Part shown: positions 1-6,582 of the stretch, in pieces
Position numbering within the stretch: the first letter of the stretch is position 1
Layout of the letters: each line of letters starts with the position of its first letter
Source: an uncultured Winogradskyella sp.
GTDB taxonomy: Bacteria; Bacteroidota; Bacteroidia; Flavobacteriales; Flavobacteriaceae
DNA: 64,000 bases
Direction: 5' to 3'
Assembly (NCBI RefSeq): GCF_947498005.1
Contig: NZ_CANMIW010000001.1
Span: 372,001-436,000 of the forward strand
Notes under the pieces: model-generated
What the model was told of the DNA's origin: nothing
Seen by the model: the letters and a program-made list of their open reading frames with translations, nothing else
Databases searched by the model: none
Program-made: the position numbers and the translations under genes

Positions 1-3000
1 AAGCCATTATCTTCTATATTGTTTTTAATTTTTTCAATTAAGACTTGAGCATTTTCAGTTTTGTTGAGGTTATAACTCGTCATAGCCAATAATGCCATTT
101 TATAGGTGTCATTACTTTTAATAGCATCATTGAAAGCTGTTGTATATTCTACAGAAAGATCTGCTTCGATTTTTGCTTCGCTTAATGCGTAAATGATATA
201 CGCATTTGCAACATCAGACGGTGAACTCGCAAAACTATCATAACCCTTTTCACTTTTCTTAAATCCACCTTTTCCATCTTTTCTGCTAAGTAACCATTGT
301 ACAGTTCTATCAATCATTTTTTGATCTACATCTTTGTAAATGGCTTTCATTTCTGTGAATTCTAAAATGCCGTAAGCGGTTAAAGTTTCGTGAGGAGGTG
401 TGTTACCAAACCATTCAAAACCACCTTCTGAGGTTTCAAAACTAATGAGTCGTTTGTATCCTTTTTTGATAAAATCCATTGCTTTGGCTTCAATTTCTGG
501 ATTACTTTTTCCTGATTCTTTCAAATATTTTAATACCATAATATTAGGATATGTAGATGAAGATGTTTGTTCAAAACAGCCATGAGGCTCGCGAATTAAT
601 GCTTCTATACCATTCATTACATCACCAATCACATCAGTATAAATATTAAATTCTGCAGAGAGCGAGTTTTCAACCACATGATTAAGTTGAAACTCAAAAC
701 TTTGAGATTTTGAATCAGATAAAGATAATTCAGTTGGAAAGTAAGGACTTAAAATGGTGGCTTGTTTTTTTACCACATCTTTATAATTTTCAGATATTGT
801 TCTTATGGTAATCTCAACAGCTTCACCTTTTTCAATAGGAATAACTTTAATGTTTTTTGTAACAGCACTATGGCTTTTAATAGTTACGCTATCTTTAAAA
901 GATTCTACTAATTTTAAATGTTTAGGAAGTCTAATTTCTAGTTTAGTTTCTAGTGTTTTTTCGGTGTCATTAGAAATGGTAATTGGTAATGAAATGATGT
1001 CATTTAAAACCATATAATTTGGTGCTTTAAAATCTACATTCAACATTTTTTTGGTCGCATATAATTTATCTTGTTTACCAACAAGTCCATTGAATCCAAT
1101 ACCTTCAGCTGTAATTTTAAAAGATGTAATGGCATCAGAATTATAAAACTCTAGTTCAGCCAAACCTTCAGCATTTGTTTGTACAACTGGATTCCAATAT
1201 ATGGTTTGCCTAAAGTCTGTACGTTCTTCAGGTAGTGCTGTGCCTTCGTATTTTGGCATGTAAAAGGTGTTTGGCGTATGGGTGTATATTGTATTGAAAT
1301 TATAGAATTGATGCACTGCGTAGTTATTATATTTATGGTTGTTTAATCTCTTTTTACGACCATAACTTAGCCCATCTTTTGTGGAAATAACGATGACTCC
1401 ATAAGCGCCTCTACTGCCATATAACGAGGTTGCTGCAGCATCTTTTAAAACTGTAACGGAAGAAACTTGGTTAGAGTCTAAATCTGCAAAAACCGACTCC
1501 TCATAAGGAACGCCATCAATAACAATTAATGGTTCATTGTTTCCCGATAGTGATCCGAAACCTCTTATTCTCACTGTCGGTGAATTTCCTGGTTGACCAC
1601 TTCCATTTACTATATTTACACCAGCAACCTTACCTGATAATACATTAATAACAGAATTATTGGTGTCAAATTGTTCCGCATTAATATGTGCAATAGCACC
1701 AGATAATTGGCTCCTTTTCATTGTACCATAAGCAACGACCACAACTTCTTCTAGGCTACTATCGTCTTGTTCTAAACCAATATGCGCTATGGCTTTTTGT
1801 TTTATAGGTTTCTTTAATAATTTTTCGTTTTTTATAAACGCTTTAAAACCATCCTTGTTTTCTGTGTTATTATTTTCAGTTTCATTGCCGTAATTGCCTT
1901 TTTTTAGAGTTGTTTTTTTTATGACTAAGCTTTCTCCATTGTCTTTATAAGCTAATAAAGTTAGACTCCGGTTTTTCTGATATTTAAAATTGAAAGACCC
2001 ATCTTCTGCAGTTTTAAAAACGAGTACCTTAGTTCCATTATCATCAAAAAGTAATAAATTGGCAGCTGTTGGTTTTCCTTTTTTGTTAAGTACAATGCCA
2101 GATTGAATAGCGCTTTGTTCGGGTAAAAATTCGGCATTGTCTAAAGTGATTTTTGGTTGATCAATATACGTTCGCCAACCATGAGTTAACATTAAATAAT
2201 CTAAAGCTTTCTTTGATTTTACTTCATTAGGATTGAGGTAAAAATTAGGTTTATGAATCTTTCCTTTTAATTCTGAAGACAATAGTAGATAAGACAAAAT
2301 ATGATCTTGTTTATCATCTGCAAATGAGAGTAAATTATGATCTGCAATGGCTAGAGATAAGTTTGCAGGAATTGGCTTATTGTTACTATCATAGGTTTTA
2401 ATTGTAAGCTTAGCTTTTTCTCTCGTATTGTAAGTTTCTTTATCTAAAGTAAGATCAATGTGTAATTGCTTGTGCGAATTGATGAACACCAAGCGTTCTG
2501 CAAAGATGCTATTAAACTCGTTTTTAATGCTGAATTTTGTAATTCCTATTGGAAAATCTTCAGTGTTTAAAACCAGATTTTGATGGTTAGAAATTTTCTT
2601 CTTTGTAAGCGAACCATTGGCATTAGAAACTTCAAGAAATAAATTTGTAGAATAGGTTGAGAATAGATGAACCTGAGTCAAAAGACTATCTGTAATTACA
2701 GAAAACCGTGCACCATTGTTGTGAATTTTTGGAAGTGGAATTAATTCATCAGAGATAAATGGTTCTGTGAGTTGAGCAAAATAAGTTGCACTCTTTTTAG
2801 GATTAAAATTAAAACTTCCCATACCATCGTGAAAACTTTCAAAATTTGAAACTACAACATTATTCTCGTCTAATATATTTCCTTTTACATCTACAGGTTT
2901 TCCAAATTCATTAAGTGCTTTAAAAGCAACTTTGTTTAAAGTACCTGCTATTATTTTTCCACTTTCAGGTAAAAATTGTAAGTCTAAGGTATTTAGAACA

Positions 3001-3716
3001 ACTGGTACAGCTCTAGAGATAGATTCTGTTGTGCCTTTATAATCAACTAATACATTTAAAACAACATCTGAGGATTCTAAATTTTCAGGTAGCGTAAACG
3101 TTGGTTTAAGTTGCCCTTTTTGGTCTGTAATGTCAGATTTGGTAATTATTATTTTTCCTTTTACACTAACTGTGTATGTAATGTTAGTATGAGCTAGAGG
3201 ATTATTTTTTAAATCTTTTACTTCAAAATTAGAGATAACCTTAGCCGATTTCCCATAGCCTTCTTTTTCAAATTTTAAACGCATCAGGAGATTCGGTTTT
3301 ACAACTTTTTGTACTGTAATTTTTTTAGTAAAAAAGGCATCGTCGCCAAAATTATTCATCCAGTTGGTGTAACATTTAAGCGTGTAGATTCCACCAACCC
3401 AATTTTTATCAATATCAAAGTCGCCATAGGCATAACCTTGGTTTATGCTTAATATTAATGATTTTACAACCGCACCTTTTGGCGAAATAAGTTCTGCATG
3501 CATAATATCACTTAAGGTTGAAATGGTATGATCTGTGCCAACCACATAAGACTTAAACCAAATGGTTTCACTTGGGAAGTAGAAGGGTCTATCGGTTTGT
3601 GTATAGATTTTTTCTAATGGATTATTAATGGCTTTGTAAGCTTTAAATGATAAAAAGGATATACCAATGCAAACTATTAATGTTAGAATTTTGATATGTT
3701 GTTTTATATATTTCAT
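1..3716 (-). CDS. Alpha-2-macroglobulin family protein with embedded SusC-type plug domain (3' end outside window)
   Basis: The reading frame is open from ATG 3716 to the left edge, giving at least 1238 residues. In order I see: a signal peptide or membrane anchor (1-25); an MG1/MG2-like start (TQTDRPFYFPSETIWFK, about 40); macroglobulin-like domains ending in LDYLMLTHGWR; a carboxypeptidase-regulatory-like beta sandwich (about 535-605); a full TonB-receptor plug (about 650-780) with EEVVVVAYG, VLSGKVAG, RIRG, VIDGVPY and VLKDAAATSLYGSRGA; then an A2M domain (FRQTIYWNP, about 837) and a thioester domain with GCFEQ, cysteine at 1047. Bacterial A2Ms trap proteases covalently in or near the envelope, and the intact CxEQ argues for a working thioester. 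No beta-barrel follows the plug. It starts 5 bases after the stop of the SusC-like gene, so the two are probably co-transcribed. Domain assignments are motif-based and the fusion is read directly from one frame. Confidence 0.9.
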   Translation of the reverse strand, partial: MKYIKQHIKILTLIVCIGISFLSFKAYKAINNPLEKIYTQTDRPFYFPSETIWFKSYVVGTDHTISTLSDIMHAELISPKGAVVKSLILSINQGYAYGDFDIDKNWVGGIYTLKCYTNWMNNFGDDAFFTKKITVQKVVKPNLLMRLKFEKEGYGKSAKVISNFEVKDLKNNPLAHTNITYTVSVKGKIIITKSDITDQKGQLKPTFTLPENLESSDVVLNVLVDYKGTTESISRAVPVVLNTLDLQFLPESGKIIAGTLNKVAFKALNEFGKPVDVKGNILDENNVVVSNFESFHDGMGSFNFNPKKSATYFAQLTEPFISDELIPLPKIHNNGARFSVITDSLLTQVHLFSTYSTNLFLEVSNANGSLTKKKISNHQNLVLNTEDFPIGITKFSIKNEFNSIFAERLVFINSHKQLHIDLTLDKETYNTREKAKLTIKTYDSNNKPIPANLSLAIADHNLLSFADDKQDHILSYLLLSSELKGKIHKPNFYLNPNEVKSKKALDYLMLTHGWRTYIDQPKITLDNAEFLPEQSAIQSGIVLNKKGKPTAANLLLFDDNGTKVLVFKTAEDGSFNFKYQKNRSLTLLAYKDNGESLVIKKTTLKKGNYGNETENNNTENKDGFKAFIKNEKLLKKPIKQKAIAHIGLEQDDSSLEEVVVVAYGTMKRSQLSGAIAHINAEQFDTNNSVINVLSGKVAGVNIVNGSGQPGNSPTVRIRGFGSLSGNNEPLIVIDGVPYEESVFADLDSNQVSSVTVLKDAAATSLYGSRGAYGVIVISTKDGLSYGRKKRLNNHKYNNYAVHQFYNFNTIYTHTPNTFYMPKYEGTALPEERTDFRQTIYWNPVVQTNAEGLAELEFYNSDAITSFKITAEGIGFNGLVGKQDKLYATKKMLNVDFKAPNYMVLNDIISLPITISNDTEKTLETKLEIRLPKHLKLVESFKDSVTIKSHSAVTKNIKVIPIEKGEAVEITIRTISENYKDVVKKQATILSPYFPTELSLSDSKSQSFEFQLNHVVENSLSAEFNIYTDVIGDVMNGIEALIREPHGCFEQTSSSTYPNIMVLKYLKESGKSNPEIEAKAMDFIKKGYKRLISFETSEGGFEWFGNTPPHETLTAYGILEFTEMKAIYKDVDQKMIDRTVQWLLSRKDGKGGFKKSEKGYDSFASSPSDVANAYIIYALSEAKIEADLSVEYTTAFNDAIKSNDTYKMALLAMTSYNLNKTENAQVLIEKIKNNIEDNG

Positions 3717-3721
3717 CGTTA

Positions 3722-6553
3722 CTATATTTTAAGTTTTGCTCTAAACCCAACTTCAGAAATTATAGGTGTATTAAAAAAGTTGAGGTTATTGCCAGAGTTA
3801 GTATCAAAAAGACTTGAAAACGGCGTAGCGCCTTTATATTTGGTTATCGTTAATAAATTTGTAGCATACAATCCGACTTCAAATTGTCTAAAAAAGGAAT
3901 CATATTCTTTTACGAAATCATAAGAAAGTTCGATTGTTTTAATGTTGAAAAAACTAGCGTCTTCTATAGCTGTTTCTGCAACACCATCAAATCCATACCT
4001 TACAAAACGGTTGTTTTCAATACCATTTGCTGCATTATAAAAATCTACCGTTGTTGTGTTAGGTGTACCTTGCTCTGTAATACCGTTAAAAATATAGTTT
4101 GTGATGGATCTTTGGTCTGCAGACTGCTGAGATACACCAAAATAGTTGAGCACGTTTTGTGTGCCATTCCAAACATCACCTCCTTTTTGGTAGTTGAATA
4201 CTAGATTTAATTTTAGTTTTTTCCAGTGTAATGCGTTAGAAAATCCGAGTGTGAAATCTGGTGTAGGATCACCAATAATTTGTTGTTCAGCATCAACAAT
4301 AGGATAACCATTAGCATCAATAACAATATTATTTTGTTCGTCTCTTTGGTATGCTGTGCCTACAATTACACCTGCAGATTCGCCAACAATTAGGTTTTTT
4401 GAAACGGAATTAAAACCATCGATAGGAACTCGTGTTTGTGTATCATATAATTTTTTTACTTCCGTGTTATTTGTAAAAAATTGTAGTCTAGGAATCCACT
4501 TTAATTCATCGAAATATTTATAAAATTCAAGATTGAATTCAAAACCTTTATTACTAATATCAGCAATGTTTTTAAGCGAAAAATTGTTATTTTCCAAAAC
4601 AGGAAACACACTACCTTCTGTTAGAGAGCCAAAGTAACTGGCTTCAAAATCCCAGTTGATACCCAAAGCGTAGAACCCAATTTCGGCATTAAATGCATAA
4701 TCGTGGTTATTTTCTAGTTCTATACTTTTATTTGTAAACAGGTCTGTATTGCTGGTATAAGTTAAACTTTCAGAAGGCGATAACCCTAAACTATTGTGGC
4801 TTTGATTAGTGTAGAATAAAGGTAATCCGCTAACATCAAAAGCACTGCTTGCGCTTAAATAGATGTATCGAAAATCATAAATATGAATAAGGTCTAATAC
4901 ATCTACGCTTAAAATAGATGTTGGTAAAAACAACTTATTTCCTTGTATTGATGATACATAAGAATCATTACTAAAACTCAACTTAGTACCATGAGAATGC
5001 GAAAATTCTACAAATTGTTTCAGTCTTAAAATATTTTGAAAAAGCGAATTGTTTACTTCGGTTGTGTTACTTGGATTTGAAAATGAAAATTCACTAAATC
5101 CTTCAGATTCTTTAAATTGATACTTAAGATTTTGATGGCTATAGGTTGTAACAGAATTTAGATTTAGGTTAAATTCTCCTAGATCTATCTCGTAATCTAG
5201 TAATAGAGTTGCGTTAAATGTGTTTCTATTAATATGTTTTTTACTTAAATAGCCGTTTTCAAAACCTATTGTGTTAGCAACAGCTCCAAAGCTTTGTTCG
5301 TTCTTGGTAGTTTTATAATTTATATGACTTCGAATTTTGAAATTATCACTAGGCTCAATTTCATTTTGAAGACTAATTACATATAAATCATTATCATCGT
5401 AATTCTTATGATTATTAAAAAGCCATTCAGGATTATTATAACTTGAAGGACTAAAACTTCGTTGGGTATTGTTTGGCAACAAACTGCCTTGATAATTGCT
5501 AAAACTTGTAGGTGTTACCAAAGCGTTTAAAAGCAGATTATTGGTAAAACCATTGATGTTTGGTTGGTTATTATTGCGTTTTCCATATTTAACAAAAGTG
5601 TCCCAGTTTAGTTTACCTGTTCTGTGCTTTGTAGTTTTAAAGCTTAACATTAGCTCATCTGTTTTGGTACGTTGACGTCCAAAAATGTCTTTAGAAATTT
5701 TGTTAGTGTAGTTAAGATTGGTACTCCAATTTTCAGACTCTACATTAAGGTTTAAATTTTGAGATCTTTTTATAGCTGTATTAAAAACAGAGTTCTTATA
5801 AGATTTCGCTTTTTGGCCATTTCCGTTACCTAAAGCAACAAATTGTCCATTTGAATCAAAATTGTAGTCAGAACCATCAAATTCTAGTTGTGCTAATTCC
5901 GGACCATAAGAAAAATAGTTACCAGTTTCTGGTCCTAAGAAGGTAAGTTCGCCATTTTGCGATGCACCTTGACTAAATTTTGTTTGTAAGTCAGGTAAGT
6001 TATTATCCTTTACAAATTGAAAACTTAAAGCAGAGTTTAAAGCAATTTCAAAATATATATCAGGATTAAAATAGGTTAGATTAACAGCATTAGGTTTTAT
6101 ATCAATAGCCTTAATACGCAACAAGGAATTATAGATGTTTTTTGTATTGTAACTGTATTTAGTGTCTTCAATATTGGGTGTTTTTAATTCGTCCCTTTTA
6201 ATGCCACTTACTGCATTGGCATAAGCATCACTGTTTATCGGTCTAATAGGTATTCTAGTAACATAAACGGTGTTTTTTGCACCAAACATACTGGCTGTTA
6301 CCTTAATTTCTCTTGGCGTCATACCTATGTAATTAACAACTAGAATATCGCCAACTAAACATGAAATACTGTAATTACCATCAAAGTCAGTTGTAACACC
6401 ATTAGTCGTTCCTTTAACAATAATTGATGCGCCTGGTAATGGTAATCCATCGTCTTCCGTAGTTAAAGTACCAGTAACAATACCTTCTTGAGCAATGCTA
6501 AAAAGTGGTAATAATAAGAGAATAAATAAAATTTTAATGGCTGTATTATACAT
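3722..6553 (-). CDS. SusC/RagA-like outer-membrane beta-barrel protein lacking a plug domain
   Basis: 943 residues from ATG 6553. An upstream in-frame TTG at 6577 would add eight residues before the signal peptide and overlaps a probable -7 box, so it was not used. A signal peptide (YNTAIKILFILLLLPLFSIAQ) is followed by a CarboxypepD_reg-like domain (GASIIVKGTTNGVTTDFDGNY, about 40-65). The rest is a SusC-type barrel: a barrel-entry segment (NNLPDLQTKFSQG, GPETGNYFSYGP), NYTNKIS strands, and a C-terminal strand ending GFRAKLKI. What is missing is the plug: between about residues 80 and 165 there is no VLSGKVAG, RIRG, DGVP or VLKDAAA motif, and the spacer is too short for a normal ~115-residue plug plus linker. 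The next gene encodes an alpha-2-macroglobulin carrying exactly such a plug. It probably sits in the outer membrane; substrate unknown. No SusD gene is adjacent. Confidence 0.88.
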   Translation of the reverse strand: MYNTAIKILFILLLLPLFSIAQEGIVTGTLTTEDDGLPLPGASIIVKGTTNGVTTDFDGNYSISCLVGDILVVNYIGMTPREIKVTASMFGAKNTVYVTRIPIRPINSDAYANAVSGIKRDELKTPNIEDTKYSYNTKNIYNSLLRIKAIDIKPNAVNLTYFNPDIYFEIALNSALSFQFVKDNNLPDLQTKFSQGASQNGELTFLGPETGNYFSYGPELAQLEFDGSDYNFDSNGQFVALGNGNGQKAKSYKNSVFNTAIKRSQNLNLNVESENWSTNLNYTNKISKDIFGRQRTKTDELMLSFKTTKHRTGKLNWDTFVKYGKRNNNQPNINGFTNNLLLNALVTPTSFSNYQGSLLPNNTQRSFSPSSYNNPEWLFNNHKNYDDNDLYVISLQNEIEPSDNFKIRSHINYKTTKNEQSFGAVANTIGFENGYLSKKHINRNTFNATLLLDYEIDLGEFNLNLNSVTTYSHQNLKYQFKESEGFSEFSFSNPSNTTEVNNSLFQNILRLKQFVEFSHSHGTKLSFSNDSYVSSIQGNKLFLPTSILSVDVLDLIHIYDFRYIYLSASSAFDVSGLPLFYTNQSHNSLGLSPSESLTYTSNTDLFTNKSIELENNHDYAFNAEIGFYALGINWDFEASYFGSLTEGSVFPVLENNNFSLKNIADISNKGFEFNLEFYKYFDELKWIPRLQFFTNNTEVKKLYDTQTRVPIDGFNSVSKNLIVGESAGVIVGTAYQRDEQNNIVIDANGYPIVDAEQQIIGDPTPDFTLGFSNALHWKKLKLNLVFNYQKGGDVWNGTQNVLNYFGVSQQSADQRSITNYIFNGITEQGTPNTTTVDFYNAANGIENNRFVRYGFDGVAETAIEDASFFNIKTIELSYDFVKEYDSFFRQFEVGLYATNLLTITKYKGATPFSSLFDTNSGNNLNFFNTPIISEVGFRAKLKI

Positions 6554-6582
6554 GAGTAAGCGCGTTGGTTTACTCAAATGTA
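6553..6582 (-). promoter_or_regulatory. Probable promoter -7 box and inverted repeat at the SusC-like start
   Basis: On the minus strand TACATTTG (6582-6575) matches the Bacteroidota -7 consensus TAnnTTTG and lies 21 bases before ATG 6553. No clear -33 TTG is seen. It overlaps an inverted repeat TGAGTAA/TTACTCA (6553-6559 and 6570-6576) that could be an operator or a hairpin over the start codon. Confidence 0.45.

Follow-up and report, generated by a model that had tools for sequence, protein, structure and literature searches.

How is a SusC-type barrel closed when its own chain carries no plug, and what does a complete SusC-type plug do in the protease-trap-like protein encoded next to it? 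Two genes at the beginning of the window, a 64,000-nt stretch of DNA from an uncultured Winogradskyella sp., raise these questions together. In every described TonB-dependent transporter known to us, plug and barrel are parts of one chain. A SusC-type barrel is built of 22 strands, and a barrel of this size is expected to be leaky when unplugged.

A barrel without a plug beside a macroglobulin that carries one

The upstream gene of the pair encodes a 943-aa protein when read from the ATG at position 6553 (951 aa from the TTG at 6577), in which a signal peptide precedes a CarboxypepD_reg domain and a SusC-type barrel. Its features, and the gap that separates it from the second gene, are the following:

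3722..6553, minus strand: plugless SusC-type outer-membrane protein (ORF, Pfam, TIGR04056, match to 5fq6)
6275..6490, minus strand: N-terminal CarboxypepD_reg-like domain (NTE), residues 22-93 (Pfam PF13715, E 2.3e-13)
6032..6274, minus strand: linker, residues 94-174, at the plug site of full-length SusC (HMM, profile-profile comparison, rate)
3725..6031, minus strand: SusC-type barrel, residues 175-943, 768 aa (TIGR04056, 5fq6 match, tree)
3717..3721, no strand: intergenic gap, 5 nt (ORF coordinates)

We have assigned the barrel to SusC by three means: TIGR04056 (SusC), for which the best stretch covers residues 602-949 (profile 636-979, E 1.6e-51), i.e., the barrel section; a match to the SusC-family structure 5fq6 (profile 207-909, E 4.6e-35); and the position of the protein in the tree described below. 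The generic barrel models of Pfam gave no match in the window's barrel protein. The barrel portion is of full size, with 768 aa as compared to 762-811 aa in the full-length SusCs with which it was compared. No SusD-like gene lies beside the barrel gene: its downstream neighbour is the macroglobulin gene, while upstream there is a gene for a carboxymuconolactone decarboxylase family protein.

The plug is missing from this protein. Pfam gave no Plug match in it at E<=1, CarboxypepD_reg being its only Pfam domain. We derived a plug HMM from the macroglobulins of the pairs (see below) and ran it on the paired barrels and on nearby full-length SusCs; in the latter, it detected a plug right after CarboxypepD_reg, at 119-144 bits, and in the paired barrels it detected none. 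When barrel residues 93-200 were compared, profile to profile, with the N-terminal halves of SusCs, again no plug was matched, the barrel-entry strand (28 columns) being all that aligned. The TonB box is absent from the barrel protein and is found in the macroglobulin instead. The sequence-only reading of this DNA had described the barrel protein as lacking a plug, and the description held in the Pfam, TIGR04056, local HMM and profile-profile tests. A divergent but complete plug, which would have told against that description, was looked for and not found; such a plug hidden in the barrel protein is ruled out by Pfam, NCBIfam, local HMMs and profile-profile comparison. The linker at the plug site, some 80 residues long, is the fastest-evolving part of the barrel protein and contains no recognisable domain.

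The second gene starts at position 3716, directly downstream of the barrel gene and co-directional with it. As read from the genome, it encodes 1520 aa, of which the last part (~845 nt) lies past the window edge:

1..3716, minus strand: alpha-2-macroglobulin-type protein with inserted plug (ORF and genome reading)
3366..3611, minus strand: MG2, residues 36-117 (Pfam PF01835)
1767..1904, minus strand: variable pre-plug linker, residues 605-650 (alignment)
1368..1766, minus strand: SusC-type plug with TonB box, residues 651-783 (PF07715, TIGR04056, TIGR04057)
1737..1754, minus strand: TonB box LEEVVV, residues 655-660 (sequence comparison)
1227..1367, minus strand: variable post-plug linker, residues 784-830, a candidate for the bait cut by proteases (alignment)
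936..1205, minus strand: A2M/MG7, residues 838-927 (Pfam PF00207)
21..644, minus strand: thioester domain (TED), residues 1025-1232 in the window, continuing past it (PF07678, E 1.4e-26)
567..581, minus strand: thioester motif GCFEQ, residues 1046-1050 (sequence comparison)

The MG2, MG7 and TED of a type I alpha-2-macroglobulin are thus all present. The TED matches known structures of A2M and CD109, and the GCFEQ (CxEQ) motif is intact in all paired macroglobulins whose sequence extends that far. The inserted plug is recognised by Pfam (PF07715; residues 670-774, E 5.7e-16), by comparison with solved SusC plugs (E 4.7e-39) and by TIGR04056, which in the macroglobulin matches with its plug section only (residues 637-783, profile 60-207, E 4.8e-57); no barrel was found in this protein. 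Pfam and TIGR04056 hence agree with the earlier description of an A2M-type protein that has a complete SusC-type plug and no barrel, and the complementary lesions in plug and barrel, 5 bases apart, are as that description gave them, in coordinates and in motifs. The plug is placed between the two variable linkers, just before MG7, in the interval that we take to be the bait region of the alpha-2-macroglobulin family. It is because of its position that the post-plug linker is given a putative role as bait. The N-termini of the paired macroglobulins are signal-peptide-like, with no lipobox conserved among them.

Distribution and descent of the pair

The pair occurs in 47 genomes, 27 of them Flavobacteriaceae and the other 20 members of a second family, the total including one genome of the latter (G326) that came from the phylum scan. 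In every pair examined, the barrel and macroglobulin genes are adjacent and co-directional, the barrel is plugless and the macroglobulin bears the plug. The same complementary arrangement in 47 genomes excludes chance or a local lesion. An absence of gene pairing in relatives would have counted against the sequence-only reading; the pairing proved to be strict, plug and barrel being reciprocally distributed and co-occurring in 47 of 47 genomes. Both genes are under purifying selection, with a dN/dS well below 1 for the plug. Assembly error, frameshift and pseudogene formation are ruled out by this selection and by the intact reading frames across the 47 genomes; the few copies of the pair that are cut are cut by contig ends only.

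Amongst 120 sampled Flavobacteriaceae genera, the two genes are present, and adjacent, in eight genomes, and both are missing from the other 112. A TED-bearing macroglobulin was identified in 16 out of 397 Flavobacteriaceae genomes, and a plugless barrel adjoins it in all 16. This barrel scored above the search threshold in 15 of them; in the other (G653), it has diverged and is an 806-aa plugless protein encoded 4 nt upstream. The other strong barrel matches that we examined are full-length SusCs with plugs of their own. An order-level scan yielded 20 further pairs, 19 of which are in the second family, where one genus carries the pair widely; all 20 were examined and have the same arrangement. 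Within the window's genus (named members Winogradskyella), the pair is present in 12 of 68 species and is, therefore, an accessory locus. The gap between the two genes measures 2-5 nt in most pairs, with 0, 13 and 39 nt also found, as well as, in one case, an overlap if the predicted start is correct; the tight spacing is kept although the flanking genes differ.

Some other loci are recorded here for their gene content. A distant TED-bearing relative of 1568 aa (L036:5174-9880) has CarboxypepD_reg repeats and a long linker in place of the plug; no plug was recognised in that interval, no barrel is encoded next door, and the protein has a TonB-box-like VQEVIV at residue 814. In one species, a secreted 156-aa ORF with two tandem half-plug repeats (L037:1623-2093) lies directly upstream of a plugless barrel. 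In one genus of Flavobacteriaceae (g121), two genes (L119:6536-7672), one for an ECF sigma factor and the other for 210 aa without a plug, are located in divergent orientation upstream of the plugless barrel; a 210-aa ORF (L034:12601-13233) occupies the equivalent place in the same genus, a match in position and length only.

In the tree, the paired barrels group together in a single, well-supported clade. Their nearest relatives belong to a SusC subfamily with its own plug, which is adjoined by SusD wherever the neighbour was checked. Most groupings agree between the trees of the macroglobulin body and of the barrel, as they should if the two are inherited together. The plug tree suggested that macroglobulins may have re-acquired plugs repeatedly from different SusCs; it is poorly resolved, and a single origin of the plug is not rejected (AU p 0.13).

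Within Winogradskyella, plug and linkers (residues ~605-825) occur as divergent alleles, one set in L056, L057 and L059 and the other in L058 and L060, between MG flanks that are nearly identical. When L056 is compared with L058, the plugs are 76% identical and the MG and TED domains 94-95%, while synonymous divergence amounts to 1.03 in the plug versus ~0.2 elsewhere. This approximately fivefold excess points to recombination of the plug cassette within the genus. Over the 12 Winogradskyella alleles, the excess divergence of the plug tracks the NTE (r 0.57) and the linker (r 0.64) of the barrel protein, and does not track the flanking MG domains or the MG7 of its own chain. After removal of near-duplicates and of non-linear rate effects, the correlation is r 0.67 for the linker (permutation p 0.001) and r 0.31 for the NTE (p 0.055). 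Covariation of the plug with the barrel NTE and linker is, in these 12 related alleles, suggestive only, and part of it could come from recombination and shared clade structure instead. Across genera, a partial Mantel test of plug against barrel gave r 0.30 (p 0.015); we have set this result aside as evidence, since it is weak and does not exceed what the other macroglobulin domains give.

A plug probably supplied in trans, and other explanations

Judging from the sequences, the products of the two genes probably form a single TonB-dependent receptor, split in nature over two chains, in which the plug of a periplasmic protease trap closes the barrel in trans. The lesions are reciprocal and strictly paired, which makes plugging in trans the simplest account of them. 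It is also physically possible, as shown by an engineered case in which an FpvAI barrel without its plug regains function when a soluble FpvAI plug is provided in trans (PMC10994204). The sequence-only reading had proposed that the plug may act in trans: what stands of this by observation is the plugless barrel and the strict pairing, while the docking itself we infer. AlphaFold2 models, from alignments of four closely related sequences, have a mean pLDDT of 25 for the barrel and 36 for the macroglobulin fragment.

The plug of an ordinary SusC has its two ends on the periplasmic side; docked likewise, the macroglobulin's plug would leave the macroglobulin body at the periplasmic mouth of the channel. 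The macroglobulin plug would enter the lumen of its partner barrel from the periplasm, and it would be this plug, not a lipid anchor, that keeps the macroglobulin at the outer membrane. By pulling on the macroglobulin's TonB box, TonB would then gate the barrel. A protease that comes through the channel, or attacks the exposed linkers on either side of the plug, would cleave the bait, trigger the thioester and be captured, and a cut in the post-plug linker would leave plug and MG7/TED on different halves of the protein; for this trapping step, we draw on what is known of the family and on the intact thioester motif. Protease capture may, we infer, be coupled in this manner to transport, or the attack by a protease be sensed.

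A variant of the locus in the second family touches on the latter idea. There (L114-L118), the order is ECF sigma factor, single-TM plug protein, in some loci a VWA/YfbK lipoprotein, plugless barrel and macroglobulin. The intervals concerned are L114:4360-8001, L115:172-5138, L116:34-4915, L117:332-3187 and L118:6065-8001, along with L113:8280-9386. The single-TM protein encoded next to the sigma factor has a SusC plug scoring 91-105 bits in four of them and a partial or degenerate one in L118 and L113; its longer forms have an added VWA domain and, in some, a T9SS sorting tail. From its position and topology, it is probably an anti-sigma factor. These additional genes are absent from the locus in the window's genome. 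With two plug-bearing proteins for each barrel, competition and signalling would be possible, and the operon variant lends some indirect support to the sensing of proteases. A fuller model, in which the receptor is split such that plug and TonB box occupy the bait position of a thioester trap, and in which the second-family plug protein competes for the barrel and reports the state of the trap, is one that we put forward tentatively, as somewhat less likely than not.

Plug-like domains also exist in Bacteroidota proteins that have no adjoining barrel partner, so that a plug alone is no proof of insertion into a barrel. TED-less MG-domain proteins of ~820-930 aa (L038-L053, L071-L073) are common in Bacteroidota, and many of them have a degenerate plug ahead of a truncated MG7; no plugless barrel lies beside these MG-plug proteins in the loci examined. 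The window's own genome harbours, in addition, a 218-aa ORF (L063:3518-4174) with a CarboxypepD_reg-like start and a partial plug, and no barrel. These proteins fit an explanation by which the macroglobulin plug would be a stand-alone domain for recruitment or TonB binding and the barrel would be closed by its own N-terminal domain and linker 94-174, a stretch without a known fold that could fill the lumen. Paired and unpaired plugs differ, however, in what they have kept. The fraction of SusC-invariant residues retained is 0.87 in 46 distinct paired plugs versus 0.61 in 14 unpaired TED-less MG-plug proteins; the Glu of the TonB box is retained in 45 of the 46 distinct paired plugs (98%), and the arginine and glycine of RG in all 46 (100%). 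With a SusC-only plug HMM, the paired plugs score 88-162 bits and the matching unpaired proteins 34-93 bits, and the TonB-box end is mostly gone from the latter. A stand-alone role leaves unexplained both the constant adjacency to a plugless barrel and the retention, in paired plugs, of the SusC invariants and TonB box that unpaired ones have lost; we consider it unlikely.

Alternatively, the barrel might be a channel for export or display, akin to two-partner secretion, through which part of the macroglobulin would be threaded out to form a surface trap anchored by the plug. The pore gene does come first in the pair, and another anchor would be useful to proteins whose signal-peptide-like N-termini have no conserved lipobox; moreover, the TonB-dependent transporter Oar is reported to be required for the secretion of a protease (PMC6434023). 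Nothing else at the locus points to export, however, and no T9SS sorting domain was found in the macroglobulin (examined in the L035 orthologue, of which the C-terminus is complete). With both ends of a SusC plug being periplasmic, the two halves of the macroglobulin would also be on that side, and we regard an export channel as quite improbable. Hardly credible, finally, is a relic, left when a SusC lost its plug and the neighbouring macroglobulin gained one by chance, with both proteins independent now: the patchy occurrence in the genus (12 of 68 species), which suggests an accessory locus, and the membership of both proteins in widespread families are compatible with it, but the strict pairing across large divergence, the near-overlapping genes, the purifying selection on both and the leak expected of an unplugged barrel of this size speak against it.

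Related systems and significance

With the SusC/RagA transporters (5fq6, 5t3r, 8aa4), the pair shares the CarboxypepD_reg domain, the barrel size, the C-terminal barrel profile and the plug/TonB-box family; it differs from these single-chain proteins in that the plug and its TonB box belong to a second polypeptide and no SusD-like gene adjoins. With type I alpha-2-macroglobulins such as E. coli ECAM, it shares MG2, MG7, a TED with CxEQ, and secretion to what is probably a periplasmic location. ECAM itself has an inner-membrane anchor (PMC4498604). The protein described here, in contrast to the ECAM type, holds an entire plug with its TonB box where the bait region is placed, and has no conserved lipobox. 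The TED-less MG-plug proteins resemble it in their order of MG domains, plug-like region and MG7 start, and are set apart by the lack of a TED, the degenerate plug, the mostly missing TonB box and the absence of an adjoining plugless barrel in the loci examined.

Barrel and plug as separate chains that work together are also found in the split FpvAI receptor (PMC10994204), but that split was engineered and uses the receptor's own plug, whereas here it is natural and the plug is part of a protease-trap-like protein. In the T9SS translocon, the large outer-membrane barrel of SprA is sealed by a separate Plug protein (PMC10994853); what is shared is the use of a separate sealing protein, whereas SprA serves protein secretion as a translocon and is not of SusC type. 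In the open-licence literature, we found neither natural plugless transporters nor plug-bearing macroglobulins.

If the two genes do form one receptor, gating of a TonB-dependent transporter can be delegated to a second protein, and the pair would give direct access to the question of how a plug enters its barrel and leaves it again. Gating, TonB energy and protease capture would meet in a single molecule. The pair would also suggest how some Bacteroidota may guard their large outer-membrane channels against proteases.
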